Assembly (NCBI RefSeq): GCF_026125785.1
Contig: NZ_JAHCKL010000002.1
Coordinates: 248,001 to 312,000, forward strand
Reading direction: 5' to 3'
DNA: 64,000 bases
From: Hydrogenophaga sp.
GTDB lineage: Bacteria > Pseudomonadota > Gammaproteobacteria > Burkholderiales > Burkholderiaceae_C
The position numbers and the translations under genes are program-made. Below the pieces are notes generated by a model. It had not been told where the DNA came from. It saw nothing but the letters and a program-made list of their open reading frames with translations, and ran no database searches. This document shows, one piece after another, positions 46,381 through 58,954 of this stretch (within the stretch, counting starts at the first letter, position 1; each line of letters starts with the position of its first letter).

Positions 46381-47930
46381 GCGGTGGCCAGGCTGATGCC
46401 CTTGAACTCCCCGGTGGCGATGCGCTGCTGCCACTCGGCCGGGCCGGTGATGTGCGCGCTGGTGCCACCGGCGTCCACCGCCACGGTGACGGGCATGTCG
46501 ACCACATCGAACTCGTAGATGGCCTCCATGCCCAGGTCCTCGAAGCCGACCACGCGCGCGGTCTTGATGGCTTTGGACACCAGGTAGGCGGCGCCGCCCA
46601 CGGCCATCAGGTAGGCGCTCTTGTGGTTGCGGATCGCCTCGATGGCCACGGGGCCGCGCTCGGCCTTGCCAATCATCGCGATCAGGCCGGTCTGCTCCAG
46701 CATCATGTCGGTGAACTTGTCCATGCGCGTGGCGGTGGTCGGGCCGGCCGGTCCCACGGCCTCATCCCTGACCGGATCGACTGGGCCGACGTAGTAGATC
46801 ACGCGGTTGGTGAAGTCCACCGGCAGCTTCTCGCCCTTGGCCAGCATGTCCTGGATGCGCTTGTGCGCGGCGTCGCGGCCGGTGAGCATCTTGCCGTTGA
46901 GCAACAGCGTGTCGCCCGGCTTCCAACTGGCCACTTCTTCCTTGGTCAGGGCGTCGAGGTTGACGCGCTTGCTCTTGTTGTAGTCGGGCGCCCAGTCGAT
47001 GCGGGGCCACAGGTCCAGCGAAGGCGCGCTCAGGTACACCGGGCCAGAGCCGTCCAGCACGAAGTGGGCGTGCCGCGTGGCCGCGCAGTTGGGGATCATG
47101 GCCACGGGCTTGCTGGCCGCGTGGGTGGGGTACATCTTGATCTTGACGTCCAGCACCGTGGTGAGGCCACCCAGGCCCTGGGCGCCGATGCCCAGCGCAT
47201 TGACCTTCTCGTACAGCTCCAGGCGCAACACCTCGACCTGGCTGAGCTTCTCGCCCTTGGCGGACTTGGCCTGCAGCTCGTACATGTCCAGGTCGTCCAT
47301 CAGGCTTTCCTTGGCCATGAGCACCGCTTTCTCCGCGGTGCCGCCGATGCCGATGCCCAGCATGCCCGGCGGGCACCAGCCAGCGCCCATGGTGGGCACG
47401 GTCTTGAGCACCCAGTCCACCACCGAGTCGCTCGGGTTGAGCATCACCATCTTGCTCTTGTTCTCGCTGCCGCCGCCCTTGGCCGCGACGGTGATGTCGA
47501 CTTTGTCGCCAGGCACGATCTCGGTGAAGATGACGGCGGGCGTGTTGTCCTTGGTGTTCTTGCGCGCGAACTGCGGGTCGGCCACGACGGAGGCGCGCAG
47601 CATGTTGTCGGGGTGGTTGTAGCCGCGGCGCACGCCTTCGTTGATGGCGTCCTCCAGGCTGCCGTCAAAACCCGCGAAGCGCACGTCCATGCCGACCTTG
47701 ATGAACACGTTGACGATGCCGGTGTCCTGGCAGATCGGCCGGTGGCCGGTGGCGCTCATCTTGCTGTTGGTCAGGATCTGCGCGATCGCGTCCTTGGCGG
47801 CGGCGCTCTGCTCGCGCTCGTAGGCGCGGGCCAGGTGGGCAATGTAGTCGGCGGGGTGGTAGTAGCTGATGTACTGCAGGGCGGCCGAGATGCTCTCGAC
47901 GAGGTCGTCGCGCTGGATCGTGGTGGTCAT
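46377..47930 (-). CDS. fumA: Fumarate hydratase, class I (4Fe-4S)
   Basis: Oxygen-sensitive iron-sulfur fumarase (517 aa) of the TCA cycle. The alpha part (about 1-300) has PICQDTGIVNVFIKVG, GGGSENKSKMVMLNPSD, MGAGWCPPGMLGIGIGGTAEKAVLMAKESL and MIPNCAATRHAHFVLDGSG, supplying the cluster cysteines. The beta part (about 330-515) has LLLNGKMLTGRDAAHKR, YYVGPVDPVRDEAVGPAGPTTATRMD and a C-terminal VDAGGTSAHITGPAEWQ. The fused alpha-beta form matches E. coli FumA/FumB. The ATG at 47930 follows a region without a clear ribosome site. A class II fumarase (fumC) lies 9 kb away. Confidence 0.95.
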   Translation of the reverse strand: MTTTIQRDDLVESISAALQYISYYHPADYIAHLARAYEREQSAAAKDAIAQILTNSKMSATGHRPICQDTGIVNVFIKVGMDVRFAGFDGSLEDAINEGVRRGYNHPDNMLRASVVADPQFARKNTKDNTPAVIFTEIVPGDKVDITVAAKGGGSENKSKMVMLNPSDSVVDWVLKTVPTMGAGWCPPGMLGIGIGGTAEKAVLMAKESLMDDLDMYELQAKSAKGEKLSQVEVLRLELYEKVNALGIGAQGLGGLTTVLDVKIKMYPTHAASKPVAMIPNCAATRHAHFVLDGSGPVYLSAPSLDLWPRIDWAPDYNKSKRVNLDALTKEEVASWKPGDTLLLNGKMLTGRDAAHKRIQDMLAKGEKLPVDFTNRVIYYVGPVDPVRDEAVGPAGPTTATRMDKFTDMMLEQTGLIAMIGKAERGPVAIEAIRNHKSAYLMAVGGAAYLVSKAIKTARVVGFEDLGMEAIYEFDVVDMPVTVAVDAGGTSAHITGPAEWQQRIATGEFKGISLATA

Positions 47931-47971
47931 GGGGAGAGGGCCTGGAAGGTGTTGAAGGGAAAGCGCCCGCC

Positions 47972-47977
47972 AGTGTA
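47972..47977 (-). promoter_or_regulatory. Candidate -10 (TACACT) of fumA
   Basis: On the minus strand TACACT lies 42 nt before the fumA ATG. The expected -35 position (about 47995-48000) has no TTGACA-like sequence and falls inside the inverted repeat at 47989-48008, so a protein bound there would affect fumA initiation. Confidence 0.45.
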
Positions 47978-47988
47978 GCGAAGCAGGC

Positions 47989-48008
47989 CTGTTCACCGGG
48001 GTGAACAG
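47989..48008. promoter_or_regulatory. Inverted repeat IR1, probable regulator binding site (distal to mrpA, at fumA -35)
   Basis: CTGTTCACC-GG-GGTGAACAG is a perfect 9-bp inverted repeat with a 2-bp centre. Its half-sites TGTTCAC and GTGAACA recur in IR2. The centre is about 127 bp upstream of the predicted sigma-54 start of mrpA and about 34 bp upstream of the predicted fumA start. Confidence 0.7.
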
Positions 48009-48032
48009 CGCCGCCGCACCGGTTGCGAAAAC

Positions 48033-48057
48033 TGAACACGTCGGGCCGGCGTGTTCA
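48033..48057. promoter_or_regulatory. Inverted repeat IR2, probable activator binding site of the mrp promoter
   Basis: TGAACACG and CGTGTTCA are perfect 8-bp inverted arms around a 9-bp spacer. The arms share the TGAACA/TGTTCA core of IR1 but in the opposite relative orientation. The IR1-right and IR2-left copies are 31 bp apart, close to three helical turns. The centre is about 81 bp upstream of the predicted mrpA transcription start. Confidence 0.65.
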
Positions 48058-48100
48058 CGCAAGTCATTGATTTTAAAGGCTCGCGTAGACAGGGCAGGTC

Positions 48101-48114
48101 GGCACGGCGCTTGC
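48101..48114 (+). promoter_or_regulatory. Sigma-54 (RpoN) promoter of the mrp operon
   Basis: GGCACG-GCGC-TTGC matches the -24/-12 consensus (TGGCACG-N4-TTGC) at every defined base except the first T, with the exact GG-N10-GC spacing. Transcription should start near 48126, 20-odd bases before mrpA and just ahead of the AAGGAG ribosome site at 48130-48135. Confidence 0.72.
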
Positions 48115-48148
48115 GAAGACAGGCTTCACAAGGAGACCTGTTGCCGTG

Positions 48149-50452
48149 ATGCTTGTCACTCTCGTCCTGTCCACGCTGGCCGCCGGCTGGTTGGCGCCCA
48201 CCGTGGTGCGCCGGGGTCTGGCACCCTGGATGGCGTTGTTGCCGGCCGGGCTGTTCCTTGCCTTCCTGGGCTGGCTGCCCGAGATCGTGGCCGGCCAGGT
48301 GGTGCTGGAGCAGCATGCCTGGATTCCCAGCCTGGGCATTGAGTTTGCCCTGCGGCTGGATGGCTTGTCGTTGTTGTTCGCGCTGCTCATCACCGGGATC
48401 GGCAGCTTCATCTTTCTCTACGCGTCGAGCTACCTGCACGGCGACGCGGGGCTGCCGCGCTTCTACGCCTTCCTCACGCTGTTCATGGGCGCCATGCTGG
48501 GCGCGGTACTGGCCGACGACCTCATCGCGCTGCTGGTGTTCTGGGAACTGACCAGCCTGACCTCCTTTCTGCTGATCGGCTACGAGCCGGAGAAGGCCGC
48601 TTCCCGGCGCGCGGCGCAGCAGGGTCTGCTGATCACGGTCGCCGGTGGGTTGGCCATGCTGGCTGGCATCGTGCTGCTCGGCAGCGCGGCGGGCACCTTG
48701 CGCATCAGCGACATCCTGGCGCAGGGCCCCACGCTGGTCGCGCATCCGCACGCCCCGGCTTTCATCACCCTGGTGGCGATCGGCGCTTTCGCCAAATCGG
48801 CGCAGGCGCCTTTGCACACCTGGCTGGCCAATGCCATGGCTGCGCCCACGCCGGTGTCCGCCTACCTGCACTCGGCCACCATGGTCAAGCTCGGCGTGTA
48901 CCTGCTGGCGCGCCTGCATCCGGCGCTGGGTGAGCACGCGCTGTGGAGTGCGCTGCTGCTGCCAGCGGGCCTGCTCACCATGCTCACCGGCACGCTGCTG
49001 GCCTTGCGCGCCAGCGACCTCAAGCGGCTGCTGGCCTATTCCACCGTGGTGTCCCTGGGCACCCTGGTCACGCTGATCGGGTTGCCGCATCCCGTGGCCC
49101 TGAGCGCGATGGTGACCTTTCTGCTGGGGCATGCGCTCTACAAGGCCTGCCTCTTCATGGTGGCGGGCATCGTGGACCACGCCTGCGGGACGCGCGACGC
49201 CACGCAGTTGGGCGGCCTGCGGCGAGCCATGCCCCTGACCGCCACCGTGGCCTTGCTGGCCGGCTTGTCCATGGCAGGGCTGCCGCCGTTCGTGGGTTTC
49301 ATGGGCAAAGAGCTGGTTTACGAGGCCACACTGGGTGGTGCATGGTGGCTGACGGCCGTGGCGCTGCTGGCCAACGCCTGCATGGTGCTGGTGGCCGGCG
49401 TGGTGGCGCTGAAGTGCTTCTTCGGTCCGGCGCGTCCCGTGCCAGGGCAGCCTCACGATCCGCCGCTGGCGATGTGGCTGGGCCCGGTGGTGCTGGCCGT
49501 GCTCGGTCTTCTGGCGGGCCTGCTGCCGCAGTGGCCCGCGGCGCTGCTTGGCGCGGCGGCCAGCGCCGTGGCCGGGCACCCGGTGACGCCGTCCCTTTCG
49601 CTGTGGCATGGCTTCACGCCCATGCTGGCGTTGAGTGCGCTGACCCTGGCGCTGGGCGCGCTCGCGCTGCGGGTCTGGCCCGCGCTGCGCCAATGGCTGG
49701 CGGGCCGCGAAGCCATGGACCGGCTCGGACCCGACCGGGCCTATGACCGCCTGATCACTGGCCTGCAACGCGTGGCTGCGTGGCAGACGCGGCGCATCCA
49801 GACCGGCAGCCTGCGGCGCTACCTCGGCAGCTTCTTCGCCGTGACCGCGCTGGGTGTGCTGCTCACCCTCTGGCTTCAGGGCGGCGCCGCGGTGGCCTGG
49901 CCGCGCTGGGCCGATGTGGGCGCGGAGGTCGCGCTGTCGGTCCTGCTGGTGCTGGCCTCGGCGGCGGTGCTGCGTGCCGGCAGCTTCATGGCCGGCATCG
50001 TCACGGCGGGCATGGTGGGCTTTCTGGTGGCGCTGGTGTTTCTCTTCCGTGGCGCGCCCGATCTCGCGTTCACGCAGTTCTCGGTGGAGGCGCTGGCCAT
50101 CGTGATCCTGCTGGCCATCGTCGGGCGCATGCCGTTTCACGAGGTCGATCCCCGGCGGTCCGGCGAACGCCGCCGCGATGCGCTGGCGGCGATCGCGTTC
50201 GGCCTCATGGCCACGCTGGTGCTGCTGGCGGTGGTGGCATCGCCCTTTGACGCGCGGCTGTCCGACTTTTTCCGAGCCGCCAGCGTGCCCGAGGCGCACG
50301 GTCGCAACCTGGTCAACGTGATCATCGTGGACTTCCGTGCGCTCGACACCCTGGGCGAGATCACGGTGCTGGCCCTGGCGGCGCTGGCCGCCGCCGCTGC
50401 GATCGCCAGCGTGCGCGCGCGCCGGGCCCATGGCGAGGAGGTGCGCTCATGA
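48149..50452 (+). CDS. mrpA: Na+(K+)/H+ antiporter subunit MrpA
   Basis: Largest subunit of the Mrp (Mnh/Pha) multi-subunit cation/proton antiporter, related to NuoL of complex I. The 767-aa membrane protein has more than 18 helices. The antiporter core is marked by [16 protein letters not shown], the Lys in [35 protein letters not shown] (split here by the TM5-TM7 region), and [19 protein letters not shown]. The C-terminal MrpA extension (about 590-767) has [25 protein letters not shown] and [28 protein letters not shown] three bases earlier (48146) is the alternative start; AAGGAG serves both. First gene of seven that overlap by 1-4 nt. Confidence 0.94.
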
Positions 50453-50850
50453 ATCCCTTGATCCTTCGCATGTGCGGCCAACTGGTGTTGCCGGTGGCTC
50501 TGCTGTTCTCGCTGTTCCTGCTCTGGCGCGGCCACAACGAACCCGGCGGCGGATTCGTCGGCGGCCTCATGGCGGCTGCGGGCTTCGCGATCCACGCCCT
50601 GCCGCGTGGGCGGGCCCGCCTGCTGCGGCTGCTGCGCATACCGCCAGGCAGCCTGGCCGCCATCGGCCTGGCCCTGGCGCTGCTCTCGGGATTGCCTGCC
50701 CTGTTGATGGGGCAGCCCTTTCTCACCCACCAGTGGGCGGTGTGGGACAGCGGCTTCGTGATCGGCACGGCGCTGGTGTTCGACATCGGTGTCTATCTGG
50801 CGGTGCTGGGCGCCGTGCTGGTGTTTCTCTCGCACTACCTGGACGACTGA
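50449..50850 (+). CDS. mrpB: Antiporter subunit MrpB
   Basis: Membrane subunit of 133 aa with four predicted helices. The family signature [26 protein letters not shown] is intact near residue 26, and [26 protein letters not shown] closes the protein. It is a separate gene here, not fused to MrpA as in the PhaAB form known from rhizobia. It overlaps mrpA by 4 nt (ATGA) and mrpC by one base. Confidence 0.93.
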
Positions 50851-51200
50851 TGGAATTCTTCTTCGTACTGGCGTTCGGTTTCATGGCCACCATCGCCGCC
50901 TACCTGCTGATGTCGCGCAACGTGCTGCGCATCGTGCTGGGCCTGTTGCTGCTGGGCAATGCCGCCAACCTGTCCATCTTCATCGCCGGCCGGCTCGAAT
51001 CGCGTGTGCCACCGTTGGTGGCGGAAGGCGAAACGCTGATTGCCGTCAGCGCGAACCCGTTGCCGCAGGCGCTGATCCTCACCGCGATCGTGATTTCCTT
51101 TGCCCTCGTGGCCTATGCGGTGGTGCTGTTCGAACAGGCCCACCAGCGTCTGGGCACGCTGGACACCGACGCCATGCGCGAAGCGGAGCCCCGAGCATGA
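50850..51200 (+). CDS. mrpC: Antiporter subunit MrpC
   Basis: NuoK-like subunit of 116 aa with three helices: FFFVLAFGFMATIAAYLLMS, VLGLLLLGNAANLSIFIAG and LPQALILTAIVISFALVAYAVVLF. The LPQALILTAIVI segment is the conserved MrpC region. It overlaps mrpB by one base and mrpD by four, so the complex is made by coupled translation. Confidence 0.93.
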   Translation: MEFFFVLAFGFMATIAAYLLMSRNVLRIVLGLLLLGNAANLSIFIAGRLESRVPPLVAEGETLIAVSANPLPQALILTAIVISFALVAYAVVLFEQAHQRLGTLDTDAMREAEPRA

Positions 51201-52717
51201 GCGCCCACCTGCTGCTCACTTTGCCGGTGGCCATTCCGCTGGCCACGCTGGTGCTGTGCGCATTGCTCCGGGACCTGCCTCGCGTCCAGCGCTGGACCAG
51301 CGTGGCCGGCAGCCTGGCCTTGCTCGCGGCGTCTGTGGCGTTGCTGGCGGCGGTCTTCGACGGGACCGTGCTGGCCACCCAGTTCGGGACCTGGTCCGCG
51401 CCGTTCGGCATCACCTTCGTCGCCGATCTGCTGGCCGGGGTGATGGTGCTGATCACCGCCGTGATGGCCGTGGCCGTCTCCGTCTATGCGCTGGTGGACG
51501 GTGCGCGCGAGCGCGAGCGTGCCTTCTTTCATCCGCTCTACCACGGGCTGCTGCTGGGCGTCTGCGGGGCCTTCCTGACGGGCGATCTCTTCAACCTGTA
51601 TGTCTGGTTCGAGATCATGCTGATCGCCTCCTTCGGCCTGCTGGTGGTGGGCGGGACACGTGCCCAGCTCGACGCTGGCGTCAAGTACGTGACGCTCAAC
51701 CTTGTGGCCACCACGCTGTTCCTCATCGCGGTCGGCTTCCTCTATGGATTGACCGGCACCTTGAACATGGCCGACCTCTCGCGCACGCTGCCCGGTGTGG
51801 AAAACCAGGGCCTGGTGAGCACGCTGGCGGTGATGTTCCTGATCGCCTTCGGGTCCAAGGCCGCACTGTTTCCGTTGTTCTTCTGGCTGCCTGCCGCGTA
51901 CCACACCGCCAGTGCGCCGGTGGTGGCCATCTTTGCCGCGCTGCTCACCAAGGTGGGCGTCTACGCCATCCTGCGCAGCTTCACGCTGCTCTTCGCGGGC
52001 GACGCCGGCTTCACCGGGCCCATCATCGGCGTGGTGGCCGCCCTCACCATGGTCACTGGCGTGCTCGGGGCGGCGGCCCACTTTGACGTTCGCCGCATCC
52101 TCTCCTTCCACATCATCAGCCAGATCGGCTACATGCTGGTCGGCCTGGCCGTGGCCACGCCGCTGGCGCTGGCCGGCTCGGTGCTCTACGTGGTGCACCA
52201 CATCGTGGTCAAGGCCAACCTGTTCCTCGTCGCCGGCGCCATGCGCCTGGCCGGCGGCAGCTTCGACCTCAAGGCCATGGGTGGCCTGCACCGCAGCGCG
52301 CCACTGCTGGCGCTGCTGTTCGCGGTGCCCGCGCTGTCGCTGGCGGGGGTGCCGCCGCTTTCGGGTTTCTGGGCCAAGTACGTGGTGGTCAAGTCCAGCC
52401 TGGACGCCGGCCACATGGTGCTGGGCGGCGTGGCGTTGGCGGTGGGCGTGCTCACCCTGTACTCGATGGTGAAGATCTGGAACGAAGCCTTCTGGAAGGC
52501 CGCCACCCCGCAGTCGGCGCAGGCGGTGGCCCATTGGAAGGCCGCGCCCCGCACGCGCCTGGCCATGCTGCTGCCCATCACCGGGCTGGCGGCCATCACG
52601 CTGACCATCGGCCTGGCCACCGAGCCCTTCATCGAGTTTTCCCTGCGGGCGGCAGACCAGTTGCTGGTGCCCGCCAGCTACATCGAGGCCGTGCTCGGCC
52701 AGGAGGCAAGCCCATGA
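51197..52717 (+). CDS. mrpD: Antiporter subunit MrpD
   Basis: Second antiporter-like subunit (506 aa, about 14 helices), related to NuoM/NuoN. Visible residues expected in the proton path: Glu in FNLYVWFEIMLIASFGLLV, Lys in AFGSKAALFPLFFWLPAAYHTASAPVVAIFAALLTKVGVYA (residues about 215-255), and the His-rich SFHIISQIGYMLVGLAV and VVHHIVVKANLFLVAGAM. PPLSGFWAKYVVVKSSLD is the usual C-terminal landmark. Overlaps mrpC and mrpE by 4 nt each. Confidence 0.94.
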   Translation: MSAHLLLTLPVAIPLATLVLCALLRDLPRVQRWTSVAGSLALLAASVALLAAVFDGTVLATQFGTWSAPFGITFVADLLAGVMVLITAVMAVAVSVYALVDGARERERAFFHPLYHGLLLGVCGAFLTGDLFNLYVWFEIMLIASFGLLVVGGTRAQLDAGVKYVTLNLVATTLFLIAVGFLYGLTGTLNMADLSRTLPGVENQGLVSTLAVMFLIAFGSKAALFPLFFWLPAAYHTASAPVVAIFAALLTKVGVYAILRSFTLLFAGDAGFTGPIIGVVAALTMVTGVLGAAAHFDVRRILSFHIISQIGYMLVGLAVATPLALAGSVLYVVHHIVVKANLFLVAGAMRLAGGSFDLKAMGGLHRSAPLLALLFAVPALSLAGVPPLSGFWAKYVVVKSSLDAGHMVLGGVALAVGVLTLYSMVKIWNEAFWKAATPQSAQAVAHWKAAPRTRLAMLLPITGLAAITLTIGLATEPFIEFSLRAADQLLVPASYIEAVLGQEASP

Positions 52718-53064
52718 GAAGAATCCGTGCCCTGTGGAACTGGCTGGCGCTGGCCGGCATCTTCCTGCGCGAGCTCGTGCTTTCGGTGCGCGAGGTCGCG
52801 CTGACCGTGCTCCGCCCGCAGCGCGCCGCGCGCAGCGGCATCGTCGCGGTGCCATTGACGGTGCGCAGCGATGCCGGCATCGCGCTGCTGGCCAACATGG
52901 TCACGCTCACGCCTGGCACCACCAGCCTGCACGTGAGCGCCGACCGGCGCGTCCTGTACGCGCACGTCATGAACCTGCAGGGCGATCCCGTGGCGCAGAT
53001 CGTCGAAGGCTTCGAGGCCCGCGTGCGCGCCGCGCTGGGCGAGGTGGAAGGAGGTGCACCATGA
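52714..53064 (+). CDS. mrpE: Antiporter subunit MrpE (short form)
   Basis: Subunit needed for assembly or full activity of the Mrp complex. At 116 aa it is clearly shorter than the usual 150-170 aa: the two N-terminal helices common in MrpE are missing, and the protein starts at a single short hydrophobic segment (WNWLALAGIFLRELVLSVREVA). The C-terminal domain is normal: VPLTVRSDAGIALLANMVTLTPGTTSLHVSADRRVLYAHVM. No start codon in the same frame would restore the missing part without reading far into mrpD, so the short form looks genuine. Confidence 0.88.
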   Translation: MRRIRALWNWLALAGIFLRELVLSVREVALTVLRPQRAARSGIVAVPLTVRSDAGIALLANMVTLTPGTTSLHVSADRRVLYAHVMNLQGDPVAQIVEGFEARVRAALGEVEGGAP

Positions 53065-53348
53065 TCCTGCCCGACTGGGTGCTGGGGCTGACGGCCCTGC
53101 TGTTGCTGCTGGCCATGCTGGCCGCGGGGGCGCGCATCGTGCGCGGTCCGCATCCTGCGGACCGTGTGGTCGCGCTGGACATGCTGGGCCTGCTGGGCGT
53201 GGCGGCCGCGGCGCTGGCCGCCCTGGTGGCCGACAGCACGGCCTTTGTGGACATCGCGCTCGGTGTGGCGCTGATCGGCTTCCTGGCGACGGTCGCGTTC
53301 GCCGCCTTCATCGAGCGCGGATCGATCCGCGAGGAGGACATGCCATGA
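53061..53348 (+). CDS. mrpF: Antiporter subunit MrpF
   Basis: Small membrane subunit (95 aa, three helices): VLGLTALLLLLAMLAAGARIVRGPHPADRVVALDMLG carries the conserved R-x-GP-x-x-x-DR segment, and VDIALGVALIGFLATVAFAAFIERG the third helix. Start and stop overlap mrpE and mrpG by four bases each. Confidence 0.92.
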   Translation: MILPDWVLGLTALLLLLAMLAAGARIVRGPHPADRVVALDMLGLLGVAAAALAALVADSTAFVDIALGVALIGFLATVAFAAFIERGSIREEDMP

Positions 53349-54151
53349 ACACCTGGGTGGCTTCCTGCCTGCTCGTCGCCGGCGCGCTGGTGTGCCTGCT
53401 GGCGGCAACCGGCGTGCTGCGCCTGCAGGACTTCTTCATGCGCATGCACGCCGCCACCAAAGCCGGCGTGGTGGGCAGTGGCCTGGTATTGCTGGGGGTG
53501 GCCGTGGCCGATGGCAGCCTGGCCACCTGGGTGAAGGTGCTGCTGGCCATTGTCTTTCTGCTGCTGACCACGCCTGTGGCGGGCCACCTGCTCGGGCGCG
53601 CGGGCTACGTTGGTGGTGCGCCGCTGTGGCGCGGCACCACGGAAGACCACTTGCGCGACGTATTGCCCCGCGGCCGCTTCGGCCCAGCGACCGCGCCCAC
53701 GGTGCGGCGGGTGGTGCTCGCGCTGACCGAAGGGCCGTGCATGGCGCGCGCGATCGGGGACGCCGTGGCGCTGGCGCGCGAGCAGGGCGCCGAGCTGTGC
53801 GGCGTGGCCATCATCGACACGCCGCGCCTGGCCAACGTCGGTCCGGTTCCCCTGGGCGCGCTGACCTACGCCCAGCGCATGAGGGAGCGGCGCCTGACGC
53901 AGGCGCGCCAGGCCGCCGCCGATGTGATCCAGCGTTTCGAGCAGGCCGCCAACGACGCCGGCCTGGTCTGGTCGGTGCGGCTGGAGGAAGGGCGCCCGCG
54001 CCGGCTGCTGCACGCCATGGCCAGCGCGGACACGGTGGTGGCCGTGGCGCCGCAGGCCTGGTTCGACCAGGGCGTCCTGGCGCAGCGGGTGGACGTGGTG
54101 CGTCGCCTGCGCTGGCGCGCGCAGAGGCCACTGCGGGTCCTGGGGGGATGA
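53345..54151 (+). CDS. mrpG: MrpG fused to a C-terminal universal-stress-protein-like domain
   Basis: Residues 1-100 are a normal MrpG (three helices, with GVLRLQDFFMRMHAATKAGVVGSGLVLLG and FLLLTTPVAGHLLGRAGYVGG). MrpG is usually 100-125 aa; this one is 268 aa. Residues 120-268 look like a UspA domain: a first strand RRVVLALTEGP, a helix, strand GAELCGVAIID, a charged helix (QRMRERRLTQARQAAADVIQRFEQAA), strand LVWSVRLEEGRPRRLLHAMASADTVVAVAP, and a last strand RPLRVLGG. The G-2x-G-9x-G(S/T) ATP motif is not seen, so ATP binding is doubtful. The domain would face the cytoplasm after the third helix. The kinase gene follows by about 20-50 bp. Confidence 0.9.
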   Translation: MNTWVASCLLVAGALVCLLAATGVLRLQDFFMRMHAATKAGVVGSGLVLLGVAVADGSLATWVKVLLAIVFLLLTTPVAGHLLGRAGYVGGAPLWRGTTEDHLRDVLPRGRFGPATAPTVRRVVLALTEGPCMARAIGDAVALAREQGAELCGVAIIDTPRLANVGPVPLGALTYAQRMRERRLTQARQAAADVIQRFEQAANDAGLVWSVRLEEGRPRRLLHAMASADTVVAVAPQAWFDQGVLAQRVDVVRRLRWRAQRPLRVLGG

Positions 54152-54204
54152 CGGGCTGGTAAGGTGAGGGCTTGTCGGCCATCCAACCGTTCGCCCTCTC
54201 CTCC

Positions 54205-55617
54205 ATGCCTGCTCCCCATGCCGTGCTCGCCGCCTACCGCCGCCTGCCGCTGACCGTGCGGCTGCCGCTGGTGGTGGCGGTGATGATCTTTGCCGCCGCC
54301 ATCGGCACCACCCAGGTGGCGCTGCAGAGCGTCTCGCGCCAGTTCGAGTCCCAGATGGCTGGCGTGGGCCAGGTCTACCTGGACGGCCTGGCGGCCGCGC
54401 TGCAGCCGGCGTTGCGCACGGCAGACGTCGAGGCTGTGCGCAGCGTGCTGGAGCGCTCGCTGGCGGTCAGCGTGGGCGTGCAGGACCGCCGCCTGGTGGT
54501 GCTGGACGCGCGAGGCGGCACGCTGGCGCGCGCCGACCGCGAGAGTTTGCCGCCCGATGCGGACTGGCCGGAGGAACTACCGGACACCGCTCGCGGCGCG
54601 CGTCTGGCGGATGAGGACCAGAGCATCTGGGTCTGGCGCACGCTCGAAGGTGAACACCGTGTGCTGGCCAACCTGGACGTCTCGGCCTTCCGAGAGCAGC
54701 GCGAGGGTCTGCGCTGGCGGCTGGTGCTGCTGGACCTGGCCGTCAGCGTGGCCTGTGCGCTGCTGGGTTTTCTGGTCGCACGACAGATGCAGCGTCCGGT
54801 GGCGCTGGTGACGCAGCGCCTGCAGGAAGGGCAGGCGATTCCGGCGGCGCTGATACAGGCCAGCGACCCGGAGTCGGCGCGGCTGATGCGGGCGGTCAAC
54901 CGCATGGCCGACGATGCGCGCGAGCGCGAGGCCATGCAGGCCCTGCTGGCCGAGCAGGAGCGCGAGGCCGTGCTGGGCCGGCTGGCGGCCACGCTGGCAC
55001 ACGAGGTGCGGAATCCGCTGGGGGGCATGGTCACCGCCATTCAGACCCTGCGCAAGTTCGGCGACCGGCCGGATGCCCGCGAAGACGCACTGGCTTTCAT
55101 CGAGCGCGGCGTGCTTGCGCTGGGCGAGGTGGTGGACGCCACCCTCACCACGCACCGCCCCGGCAGCGGTGAACGCCGCCTGCGCCTGCAGGACCTGCAG
55201 GACGTCCAGCGGCTGGTGGCCGCCGATGCACGCCAGCGCGGTGTCGGTGTGCGGCTGGAGGCCGTGCCCGGCCTGCCCGAGGAACTGCCCGTGGCGGCCA
55301 CCGAGGTGCGGCAGGTGCTGCTCAATCTGCTCATCAACGCCGTGCGCGCCACGGCCCCCGGAGGCGAGGTGCTGCTGCGCGTGCGGCGCGAGGCGCGCGC
55401 GCTGGTGCTGGAGGTGATCGACCAGGGCAAGGGCATGGCCGAAGACGTGGCCGACAGCCTGCGCCGAGGCCTGCCGCACGCCGGGCAGACGGGTCTTGGC
55501 GTGGCCGTCATCGTGCGTCTGGTGCAGCAACTGCGGGGCCGGGTCGCGGTGGATGCACACTCGCAGGGTGGCACCCACATCACGCTGGAACTGCCGCTGG
55601 AATCCCGAGACCCATGA
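54205..55617 (+). CDS. Sensor histidine kinase of the mrp-linked two-component system
   Basis: Membrane kinase of about 470 aa. TM1 (VRLPLVVAVMIFAAAIGTTQVAL) is followed by an extracytoplasmic sensor of about 150 residues (ADVEAVRSVLERSLAVSVGVQDRRLVVLD, a PAS/dCache-like pattern) and TM2 (LVLLDLAVSVACALLGFLVA), a HAMP-like linker, H-box ATLAHEVRNPLGGM, N-box LLNLLINAVRATAPGG and G-boxes VIDQGKGM and GQTGLGVAV. The H-box type (HEVRNPL) is that of NtrB/AtoS-like kinases that pair with sigma-54 regulators. A TTG at 54172, 6 nt after TAAGGT and with GGTGAGG near it, would add 11 residues. The stop overlaps the regulator start (ATGA). Confidence 0.88.
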   Translation: MPAPHAVLAAYRRLPLTVRLPLVVAVMIFAAAIGTTQVALQSVSRQFESQMAGVGQVYLDGLAAALQPALRTADVEAVRSVLERSLAVSVGVQDRRLVVLDARGGTLARADRESLPPDADWPEELPDTARGARLADEDQSIWVWRTLEGEHRVLANLDVSAFREQREGLRWRLVLLDLAVSVACALLGFLVARQMQRPVALVTQRLQEGQAIPAALIQASDPESARLMRAVNRMADDAREREAMQALLAEQEREAVLGRLAATLAHEVRNPLGGMVTAIQTLRKFGDRPDAREDALAFIERGVLALGEVVDATLTTHRPGSGERRLRLQDLQDVQRLVAADARQRGVGVRLEAVPGLPEELPVAATEVRQVLLNLLINAVRATAPGGEVLLRVRREARALVLEVIDQGKGMAEDVADSLRRGLPHAGQTGLGVAVIVRLVQQLRGRVAVDAHSQGGTHITLELPLESRDP

Positions 55618-56927
55618 ACGACATCCTGCTGATCGAAGACGACCGCGTGCTGGGCGGCGCGGTGAGCCAACGCCTGCGCCTGGAGGGTTTCGAGGTGCGC
55701 TGGGCCGAGACCAGCGCCCAGGCCATGGCCGCGCTGCGGCTGCGCCGGCCGGCCTTTGTGCTGGCCGACATCCGCCTGCCCGACGGGTCCGGCGAGGATC
55801 TCTACCGCAGCGCCATGCCCTACCTGGGCGACACGCCCATCCTGTTCGTGACCGCGTTCGCCGACATCGGCCAGGCGGTGCGGCTGGTGCGGGCCGGCGC
55901 CGACGACTACCTCACCAAACCGTACGACATGGATGCGGTGGTGGCGCGGATCCGCGCGCTGGCCAGCGAACCGGCCGCTGCGACCGAGGGCATGCCGGGC
56001 GGAGGCTCGGCCGCGTCCGAGGCGCTGGCGCGCGACCTGCACCGCCTGGCCGCGCGCGATCTGCCGGTGCTGCTGCGCGGCGAGACCGGCGTGGGCAAGG
56101 AGGTGGCCGCGCGGTACATGCACGCCCACTCACCGCGCGCGGCACAGCCCTTCGTGGCGGTCAACTGCGGCGCCATCGCCCGCGAGCTCATGGAGAGCCA
56201 GTTCTTTGGCCACGAGCGTGGGGCTTTCACCGGAGCGGTCGCCGCGCACGCGGGCTATTTCGAGGAGGCCGGCGAAGGCACACTGTTCCTGGACGAGATC
56301 GGCGAACTCGACGCCCGGTTGCAGACCGCGCTGCTGCGGGTGTTGCAGGACGGGGTGTTTCGCCGCCTGGGTGGCCGCACCGAACAGCGGTTCCGTGGCC
56401 GCCTCATGGCCGCTACCAACGCCGACCTGAACGAGCGCATGGCCAGCAAGGCGTTTCGCGAAGACCTGTACTACCGGCTCGCGGTGGTGGAGCTGACCAT
56501 TGCGCCGCTGCGCGAGCGCCGCGAGGACATCGTGCCGCTGGCGCAGCGCTTCCTGCGCGAGGCCGCCGCGCGCAACGGCATGCCCGGTCTGGTGCTGGAA
56601 GAGGCGGCGCTGGCGGCTCTGCAGGGCCATGCCTGGCCGGGCAATGTGCGGGAGCTTCGCAACCGCATCGAGCGCGCGGTGGCGCTGGTCGACGGTGATG
56701 GCATCACGCCGCAGGACCTGTTCCCCGAGCAGCGGCTGGACATGCCGGTGGCACCGGAGACCCTGGCCGATGCCCGCGAGCAGGCCGAACTGGACCAGAT
56801 CGATCGCGCGCTGGCGCTGTCGGGCGGGCGTGTCTCGGAGGCGGCGCGCCGCCTGGGCATCTCGCGCACCACGCTCTGGAAGCGGCGCCGCAAAGGTCCG
56901 CCGGACACCGGCGACTTACCCGAATGA
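55614..56927 (+). CDS. Sigma-54-dependent NtrC-family response regulator
   Basis: Activator of 437 aa. The receiver (1-120) has [12 protein letters not shown], the phospho-acceptor Asp in [13 protein letters not shown], Thr in FVTAFAD and Lys in [17 protein letters not shown]. The AAA+ domain (about 135-375) has Walker [13 protein letters not shown], the complete sigma-54 contact loop GAFTGA in [20 protein letters not shown], Walker [13 protein letters not shown], and the R-finger region [14 protein letters not shown]. The C-terminal Fis-type helix-turn-helix is [24 protein letters not shown]. Phosphorylated by the adjacent kinase, it should open sigma-54 promoters such as that at 48101. fumC follows 19 nt downstream. 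Confidence 0.93.
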
Positions 56928-56946
56928 AGAAAGGAGTCCGCTCCCC

Positions 56947-58332
56947 ATGAACACCCGCACCGAACACGATACCTTTGGCCCGATCGAGGTCCCGGCCGAC
57001 CGCCTCTGGGGCGCGCAGACGCAGCGTTCGCTGCAGAACTTCGACATCTCCGGCGAACGCCAGCCGCGCGAGATCATCCACGCGCTGGCCCAGGTCAAGC
57101 GCGCGGCGGCGGCGGTCAACCACGCGCTGGGCTTGCAGGACGCGCGCAAGACCCAGGCCATCGTTCAGGCCGCGGAGGAGATCATCGCCGGCCGGCACGA
57201 GGCCGAATTCCCGCTGGTGGTCTGGCAGACCGGCTCGGGCACGCAGACCAACATGAACGTCAACGAGGTGCTGGCCAACCGCGCCAGCGAGCTGCTGGGC
57301 GGCCCGCGTGGGGAAGGGCGGCTGGTGCACCCGAACGACGATGTGAACCGCAGCCAGTCCAGCAACGACGTGTTTCCCACCGCCATGCACGTGGCGGCGG
57401 CGGAAGCCATTGTGCGGCGCCTGCTGCCGGCGCTGCAGCGACTGCGCGAGACGCTGGCGCAGAAGGCGCTCGCGTTCGACGGCATCGTCAAGATCGGCCG
57501 CACCCACCTGCAGGACGCCACGCCGCTGACGCTGGGCCAGGAGATTTCAGGATGGGTGGCGCAGTTGGAACAGGGCGAGCGGCACGTGCGCGATGCGCTG
57601 CCCCATCTGTGCGAACTGGCGCTGGGCGGCACCGCGGTGGGGACCGGCCTGAACGCGCCCAAGGGCTATGCCGAACAGGTGGCGGCGGAGCTCGCCGCGC
57701 TCACCGGACTGCCTTTTGTGACAGCGCCCAACAAGTTCGAGGCCATGGCCTCGGTGGATGCGCTGGTGCATGCGCACGGCGCGCTCAAGACCTTGGCGGT
57801 GAGCCTGAACAAGATCGCCAACGACGTGCGCTGGCTGGCCAGCGGGCCGCGCAGCGGCATCGGCGAGATCCGCATTCCGGAAAACGAGCCGGGCTCGTCC
57901 ATCATGCCGGGCAAGGTCAACCCCACACAGAGCGAAGCGCTCACCATGCTGGTCGCGCAGGTACTGGGCAACGACGTCGCCATCAACATCGGCGGCGCCT
58001 CGGGCAACTTCGAACTCAATGTCTTCCGACCCATGGTGGCGCACAACTTCCTGCAGAGCGTGCGCCTGCTGGCCGATGGCATGAGGAGCTTCAACGACCA
58101 CTGCGCCGTCGGTATCGAACCCGACCGCGCGCGCATCGCCGAACTGGTGGAGCGTTCCCTGATGCTGGTGACCGCGCTCAACCCGCACATCGGCTACGAC
58201 AAGGCGGCCTTCATCGCCAAGAAGGCCCACAGAGAAGGCAGCAGCCTGCGCGAGGCCGCCATGGCTTCCGGCTACGTCACGGCCGAGCAGTTCGACCAGT
58301 GGGTGGTGCCGGCGAACATGGTGGGGCGCTGA
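56947..58332 (+). CDS. fumC: Fumarate hydratase, class II (iron-independent)
   Basis: Homotetrameric, oxygen-stable fumarase (461 aa). It begins [27 protein letters not shown], has [21 protein letters not shown] and [14 protein letters not shown] near residues 100 and 140, [20 protein letters not shown], the catalytic Ser in the fumarase/aspartase signature [21 protein letters not shown] (about 315-335), and a C-terminal small domain. AAGGAG lies 11 nt before the ATG. It sits 19 nt after the regulator gene on the same strand, so it is likely the last gene of the mrp-kinase-regulator transcript; no separate promoter was found in the short gap. Confidence 0.96.
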
Positions 58333-58351
58333 ACGCCCACGTCGGCCTGGC

Positions 58352-58954
58352 TCAGTGCCCGTCGCCCTGGGCCGGATGCGCCATCAGGCGGTCCGTCACG
58401 GCGATGGCCATGGCGCTGAGCAGGAACACCACGTGGATGATGGTCTGCCACATCAGCACCTTCACGTCGTAGTTGGCGGCGTTGATGAAGGTCTTGAGCA
58501 GGTGGATGGAGCTGATGCCGATGATGGCGGTGGCCAGCTTGACCTTGAGCACCGAGGCGTTCACGTGGCTCAGCCATTCGGGCTGGTCGGGGTGATTCTC
58601 CAGGTGCATGCGGCTCACGAAGGTCTCGTAGCCACCGACGATGACCATGATCAGCAGGTTGGAGATCATCACCACGTCGATCAGCGCCAGCACCACCAGC
58701 ATGATCACGGTTTCGTTCAGGCCGTTGAGCTGCACGTCGCTCTTGTAGCCGATGCTGCTGATGAGCTTGTCCAGGGCGACCTGGTTGCCGAAGGCGGCTT
58801 CGATCAGGTGCACGAGTTCCACCCAGAAGTGGAAGACGTAGATCGCCTGCGCGGCGATCAGTCCGATGTAGAGCGGCAACTGCAGCCAGCGGCTGGCGAA
58901 AATGAGGTTCGGCAGCGCGCGCACCGAGGCAGGGGTTTTGACAGGTTCGGTCAT
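58352..58954 (-). CDS. YqhA/UPF0114 family membrane protein
   Basis: Integral inner-membrane protein (200 aa) with four predicted helices. It starts with a short cytoplasmic segment, then LPLYIGLIAAQAIYVFHFWVELVHLI, ETVIMLVVLALIDVVMISNLLIMVIVGGYETFVSR (helices 2-3 with the conserved SNLLxMVIVGGYETFVS motif), LATAIIGISSIHLLKTFINA and VLMWQTIIHVVFLLSAMAIA. The family (TIGR00645) is found widely, but its function is not known; some genomes link it to respiratory genes. It converges with fumC. A TACAAT hexamer on the minus strand (59009-59014) may be its -10. Confidence 0.88.
   Translation of the reverse strand: MTEPVKTPASVRALPNLIFASRWLQLPLYIGLIAAQAIYVFHFWVELVHLIEAAFGNQVALDKLISSIGYKSDVQLNGLNETVIMLVVLALIDVVMISNLLIMVIVGGYETFVSRMHLENHPDQPEWLSHVNASVLKVKLATAIIGISSIHLLKTFINAANYDVKVLMWQTIIHVVFLLSAMAIAVTDRLMAHPAQGDGH

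Follow-up and report, generated by a model that had tools for sequence, protein, structure and literature searches.

Two-component circuits that act through sigma-54 consist of a histidine kinase, an NtrC-type response regulator with a GAFTGA motif, upstream regulator sites and a −24/−12 promoter, often with a site for integration host factor (IHF). NtrB/NtrC, DctB/DctD and ZraS/ZraR are circuits of this kind. NtrC-type activators are phosphorylated by the kinase, oligomerise on paired sites, reach the promoter by IHF-assisted looping and drive the opening of the sigma-54 polymerase with ATP. QseE/QseF at glmY is reported as a further two-component sigma-54 circuit (PMC6075780), and Npa/Nps, RpoN and IHF are reported to control pilE in Neisseria (PMC6528607). 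Here we analysed a 64,000-nucleotide stretch of Hydrogenophaga sp. DNA (the window; forward-strand positions 248,001 to 312,000 of contig NZ_JAHCKL010000002.1, from a genome of 4.17 Mb in 46 contigs), in which mrpA–mrpG, encoding a predicted Na+ or K+/H+ antiporter, are followed on the + strand by a histidine kinase gene and then an NtrC-type response regulator gene. We propose with considerable confidence that mrpA–mrpG are driven by a sigma-54 promoter that is switched by this 3′-encoded two-component system through two upstream sites and IHF. Like the known circuits, the mrp locus has a kinase, a GAFTGA regulator, upstream sites, a −24/−12 promoter and an IHF-type site; it differs from them in its target, a seven-subunit antiporter, and in its regulator site, which we take to be distinct from that of NtrC. 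As at Neisseria pilE, RpoN, IHF and a two-component pair would converge on one structural target, here a different one. The locus also shares the seven subunits and their usual order with other Mrp (Mnh/Pha/Sha) operons, from which it is set apart by the 3′ kinase and regulator genes, the sigma-54/IHF-type promoter and a Usp-like extension of MrpG. The architecture is thus textbook, and its wiring to Mrp is an unexpected target, found in the samples searched in only part of Hydrogenophaga.

Among the titles and abstracts listed by a limited search of open-access literature, outside which most subscription journals lie, none describes sigma-54 two-component control of an mrp operon. The passages retrieved from PMC5703873, PMC7419157, PMC4641369, PMC2700814, PMC12516955, PMC12993520 and PMC2864759 contained no link between Mrp and a sigma-54 two-component system, and passage searches of two Mrp papers, among them the main text of the first of these, a review, returned none of the regulation terms looked for. 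One of the retrieved passages (PMC2864759) quotes the promoter TGGCATGNNNNTTGC.

The upstream region of mrpA contains a putative sigma-54 core, GGCACG-N4-TTGC, on the + strand, with a predicted transcription start at about 48126. The original prediction, an earlier reading of the bare sequence of the window, had placed this element at 48101–48114, and GGCACG-GCGC-TTGC lies exactly there, with GG-N10-GC spacing and hexamers of the TGGCAC-N5-TTGC type that we take to be the sigma-54 consensus. A variant of the core, GG[CT]A[CT][GA]-N4-TTGC, occurs in all nine orthologous loci described below, 41–58 bp before the mrpA start, which was extrapolated from the protein match wherever that match stopped short of residue 1. 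In a given 150 bp of one strand, the core would be expected by chance about 3e-4 times. The genome encodes a single rpoN, outside the mrp locus, and the AAA+ activator domain is matched strongly eight times in it. Upstream of the core, at 48060–48072 on the − strand, lies an IHF-type site overlooked in the original prediction, AATCAATGACTTG, matching WATCAANNNNTTR, which we take to be the IHF consensus. Its conserved block reads GCAA-N4-TTGAT on the + strand; WATCAANNNNTTR is exact in seven of the nine loci and carries one mismatch in the other two, always 41 or 42 bp before the −24 GG, and the copy in the window is the only exact match in the 64 kb on either strand. By position the site stands between enhancer and −24/−12 element, as in IHF-assisted promoters; IHF itself is presumably supplied by the host, and its binding here is a prediction from the site.

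Two putative enhancer sites lie further upstream. The distal site (UAS1, 47990–48007) is a perfect 18-bp palindrome, TGTTCACCGGGGTGAACA, with its centre 102.5 bp upstream of the −24 GG; it reads TGTTCACC-GG-GGTGAACA and corresponds to the first of two inverted repeats in the original prediction, where the start differs by one base. As evidence it is stronger than the core: the pattern TGTTCACCNNGGTGAACA has no second match in the genome at zero mismatches. The proximal site (UAS2, 48021–48038), 31 bp or about three helical turns from UAS1, is a degenerate GTTGCG-N4-CTGAAC with 8 of 10 fixed positions, all 10 of which are present in five of the eight relatives. When the two best GTTCA-N6-TGAAC matches within 150 bp before the −24 element were taken at each locus, they fell at the same two distances in 9/9 loci: 102.5 or 104.5 bp from the −24 GG for the distal site and 71.5 or 72.5 bp for the proximal one, so that the two are 31–32 bp apart. 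Three loci, those of the window and its two closest relatives, combine a perfect distal site with a proximal one that keeps 8 of 10 fixed positions; the remaining six have 9–10 at the proximal and 7–9 at the distal site. The second repeat of the original prediction, TGAACACG-N9-CGTGTTCA (48033–48057), is present in the window as written, with arms at 48033–48040 and 48050–48057, but part of its right arm (TGTTCA, 48052–48057) is missing at the aligned place in all eight relatives. Because that arm is not conserved, this repeat is probably not a functional unit, and we rejected it as a site in favour of the conserved proximal site at 48022–48037, within UAS2.

Both regulatory proteins follow mrpG on the + strand, as the original prediction had stated, and the activator has an intact GAFTGA motif. 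The sensor histidine kinase (54205–55617; + strand) comprises two hydrophobic stretches, a predicted PDC-type extracytoplasmic domain of about 130 residues, HisKA and HATPase_c. We chose ATG 54205 as its start, the longest frame opening at TTG 54172. HisKA and HATPase_c score above cut-off in the window kinase and in the four relatives scanned, and the kinase lies next to its presumed partner, their frames overlapping at 55614–55617. The NtrC-family regulator (55614–56927; + strand) has a receiver, an AAA+ domain with GAFTGA and a Fis-type helix-turn-helix (PF00072, PF00158 and PF02954), and the closest solved chains, 4l4u and 1ny5, are named NtrC-family regulators. It could not be assigned to a named member of that family: the ten best NCBIfam models include NtrC, a PEP-CTERM regulator, AtoC, GlrR and ZraR, and the scores stay below the cut-offs for NtrC (349.2 vs 558.6 bits), AtoC (317.6 vs 714), GlrR (301.5 vs 763) and ZraR (277.9 vs 760). 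For kinase and regulator alike, none of the best 25 NCBIfam models (of 67 and 93 matched in all) reaches its cut-off.

Next, conservation was followed across the genus. The kinase was searched in 147 genomes, 67 of which (own included) belong to the same genus, at a threshold of E 1e-30. Matches were obtained in 16 genomes, namely nine of the genus at 52–100% identity, G058 at 29% and six from other families at 30–35%; the examined stretch of G058 contained no mrp genes. A kinase search of the genome_contigs collection gave six loci, two of them close; the nearest named loci are from Hydrogenophaga, and Hydrogenophaga sp. IBVHS1 (L046) carries the locus. MrpA was matched in 58 of the 67 genus genomes, with at least 68% identity only in the nine that carry the kinase and at most 55% in the remaining matches listed. 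The eight genomes other than that of the window encode MrpA at 68–81% and the kinase at 52–78% identity to the window proteins, and such a 9/9 coincidence of MrpA type and kinase among 67 genomes would have a probability of about 2e-11 if the genomes were independent. The order mrpA–mrpE, mrpG, kinase, regulator is the same in 8/8 relatives; mrpF was unmatched in four of them (L039–L042), partly through an off-by-one query. Alignment of the nine upstream regions revealed four conserved blocks: the two GTTCA-N6-TGAAC-type sites, GCAA-N4-TTGAT and GG[CT]A[CT][GA]-N4-TTGC. The original prediction had staked itself beforehand on conservation in relatives that keep the gene order, and the −24/−12 element and the site pair are present in all eight. 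The parts occur jointly and with a fixed geometry in nine genomes. This layout is the same in 9/9 loci although the fumarase gene fumA lies upstream in only three. Together, fumA and fumC flank the module in those three (the window, G012 and G029), and neither was found in the examined stretches of the other six (L038–L043).

The regulator and the sites also travel together. GAFTGA and the receiver motif DIRLPD are present in all nine mrp-linked regulators, which also share SRTTLWKRR, without a single change, as their recognition-helix stretch; the 11 remote homologues examined (42–48% identity) have SRKNLWE, SRKNLWQ, SRKTLWE or SRKSLWE instead. The palindrome pattern occurs once each in the loci of seven of the eight relatives, only upstream of mrpA, with one mismatch in the eighth (G039). 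It is missing from all 21 control loci, which surround remote regulators.

The same elements are absent from the controls. With matrices built from the eight relatives only, the −24/−12, IHF-type and UAS2 blocks of the window each rank first of about 128,000 window positions, and three positions, UAS1 included, score as high as UAS1 or higher with its own matrix. For comparison with other mrpA genes of the genus, 20 upstream regions from 19 genomes (own twice) were chosen among the many other mrpA matches, taking the last 950 bases of each; one (L183), whose upstream part is limited to a few dozen bases, is uninformative, which leaves 19. In these 19 regions no block comes near the orthologues' minimum, the best control scores being 13.3, 7.2 and 12.4 against minima of 17.9, 30.1 and 21.3 for the −24/−12 element, the IHF-type site and the proximal site, respectively. 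A sequence-only covariance model of the promoter (136 positions) scores the nine loci at 77–94 bits, as it must by construction, and its best match elsewhere in the 67 genomes at 29.3 bits, which leaves one strong match per genome; at E 0.1, 63 of the 67 genomes gave some weak match, and the strict filters of the search may lose weak ones. The next-best matches are partial and cover the IHF and −24/−12 part. By eye, two of them, in other genomes of the genus (L208 and L210), have a −24/−12 core (GGCACAGCGCTTGC and GGCACGAAGCTTGC) between a response-regulator-like frame and the next frame, an indication that the model responds to genuine sigma-54 architecture.

On this basis we propose how the mrp circuit may operate; binding, phosphorylation, use of sigma-54, looping, autoregulation and the kind of signal are all predicted here from sequence. 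The membrane kinase would detect an extracytoplasmic signal through its PDC-type domain and phosphorylate the NtrC-type regulator, oligomers of which would assemble on the strong site at 47990–48007 and the weak site at 48021–48038, three turns apart. IHF would bend the DNA at 48060–48072 and bring the regulator to the sigma-54 polymerase at −24/−12, and ATP hydrolysis coupled through the GAFTGA loop would open the promoter. If kinase and regulator share the mrp transcript, as the gene spacing suggests, positive autoregulation follows and activation would be self-reinforcing. Since sigma-54 promoters stay off until an activator acts on them, expression of this costly membrane complex is predicted to be switched tightly on or off, not graded as in housekeeping control. 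The original prediction had called the circuit self-contained, which applies to the sensor, activator, enhancer and promoter; RpoN is encoded elsewhere and IHF presumably comes from the host.

Several observations weigh against this proposal. The 4.17-Mb genome has 18 copies of GGCACG-N4-TTGC, compared with 13 of a reversed-pattern control, so the bare core is weak evidence on its own. No sigma-70 pattern lies within 47900–58500, but only 0.3 would be expected there, and its absence therefore carries no evidential weight. The degenerate member of the pair is UAS2 in three loci (the window and its two closest relatives) and UAS1 in the other six; from this exchange of strong and weak between loci we conclude that what is kept is the pairing of a strong with a weaker site at a distance of three turns. 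Because the nine genomes are related, the loci are not independent and some of their conservation reflects shared descent. Last, GTTCAS-N4-STGAAC has four exact places in the own genome, three besides the mrpA site, and 22 in the whole genomes of the eight relatives (15 besides the seven at mrpA) against 10 for a reversed control.

These extra places are what an alternative would need in which the two-component system does use a sigma-54 promoter but has its main targets elsewhere, mrp being one of several members of a regulon, as one NtrC-type regulator often governs several promoters. Where they lie does not favour it. The three in the own genome are 482–800 bases inside frames of coding-like composition; 10 of the 15 in the relatives were examined, six of which are at least 380 bases inside clearly coding-like frames and four of which are ambiguous (L220, L225, L233 and L234). 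Nine of the 13 places examined are thus buried in coding-like sequence. The test gives no more than a hint, because such frames also contain four of the eight genuine sites upstream of mrpA, none of them farther than 278 bases from the frame 5′ end. The ambiguous places leave room for a second target, yet the full promoter model finds one strong match per genome, and we regard a regulon centred elsewhere as unlikely. Less probable still is that another regulator uses the palindromes as operators, for example at the divergent fumA, with the kinase and regulator acting elsewhere. Palindromic operators are common and 60 bp separate UAS1 from the fumA start codon, but the spacing of both sites from −24/−12 is unchanged in the six loci in whose examined stretches fumA was not found, and the sites track the regulator linked to mrp, with its invariant recognition helix; we consider this explanation very improbable. 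A housekeeping promoter for mrp, with a −24/−12 match that arose by chance, as the near-equal genome-wide frequency of exact cores and reversed control might suggest, is scarcely credible: the core stands at a fixed distance behind an IHF-type and two enhancer sites in 9/9 loci and is absent from the 19 informative control regions ahead of other mrpA genes.

A sigma-54 circuit dedicated to mrp is accordingly preferred, with a distribution that is narrow in the samples searched. We rejected a family- or order-wide system on the following comparisons. In an order sample of 399 genomes the regulator was matched in 23 other genomes at 42–48% identity, and no mrp gene was found at E 1e-8 near the regulator in 20 stretches from 19 of these 23 (G101, G358, G443 and G468 left out); in two stretches (L118 and L121) the regulator is near a contig end and one side is barely covered. 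Another 13 genomes of the family sample, with regulator matches at 43–46%, lie outside this neighbourhood comparison. Outside the genus, MrpA gave a single match past E 1e-165, at 49% identity, among the 399 genomes of the family sample; neither 399-genome sample is exhaustive.

The tie of sensor, activator and promoter to the antiporter offers a direct handle on the signal to which this Mrp answers. In the window and the four relatives, no Pfam family scores above cut-off in the sensor region, the CusS sensor domain reaching E 0.055, below cut-off, and no solved sequence relative was found. A structure model of the whole kinase is of low confidence (predicted local distance difference test score, pLDDT, 59), and its structural comparison is dominated by the kinase core; a sensor-only model reaches pLDDT 72, based on three sequences, and gives PDC-type matches. 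The sensor is modelled as an extracytoplasmic domain of the PDC/Cache fold between two transmembrane helices. WalK, CitA, CusS and DcuS have PDC-type sensors with 6–13% identity to the modelled one, a level from which the ligand cannot be read off. CitA and DcuS bind citrate and C4-dicarboxylates; because the fumarase genes flank the module in only three of nine loci, we do not claim a dicarboxylate signal.

More tentatively, the locus may be a portable, self-regulated antiporter module, in which Mrp, PDC sensor, activator and enhancer-promoter move together between chromosomal sites, in five species with a second mrp operon behind; a dedicated sensor of an ion, pH, envelope state or small ligand might then give all-or-none, self-reinforcing Mrp. 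In those five of the eight relatives (L038, L039, L040, L042 and L043), the second operon starts about 50–100 bp past the regulator gene, and its mrpA (39–41% identity) is apparently fused to mrpB, with a TAGACT −10-like block directly before the ATG.

By domain matches the locus encodes all seven Mrp subunits, with separate A and B, in the usual order and in genes that overlap end to end (48149–54151), all on the + strand. These are mrpA (48149–50452; antiporter subunit A, 767 residues, ATG at 48149, identified by Pfam and NCBIfam), mrpB (50449–50850; PF04039), mrpC (50847–51200; PF00420), mrpD (51197–52717; PF00361 and NF009306), mrpE (52714–53064; PF01899), mrpF (53061–53348; PF04066) and mrpG (53345–54151; PF03334 at residues 9–88). 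The C-terminal Usp-like extension of MrpG matches PF00582 at residues 120–227 just under the cut-off (E 2e-4; 22.3 vs 24 bits), and the fusion protein has a near full-length match, at 63–81% identity, in the loci of all eight relatives. The own genome has two further mrpA paralogues (L177 on G000:C20 and L178 on G000:C24; 42% and 46% identity), the upstream regions of which are without the enhancer promoter.

The divergent gene upstream of mrpA in the window, fumA, encodes a class I-type fumarase (PF05681/PF05683), and UAS1 is so near its start codon (47931–48007) that binding of the regulator could affect the fumarase gene too. Downstream, fumC starts 19 bp past the regulator stop (56928–56949), and the two closest relatives have a spacing of 0 to about 10 bp here; this class II fumarase may therefore share the mrp transcript, with the other fumarase divergent from the same intergenic region. 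Last, a short block is visible by eye ahead of the kinase start (54150–54205), reading GGTAAGGT in the window and two relatives and TACGATCGGG in five others; being −10-like in eight of the nine loci, it may provide kinase and regulator with weak basal transcription.

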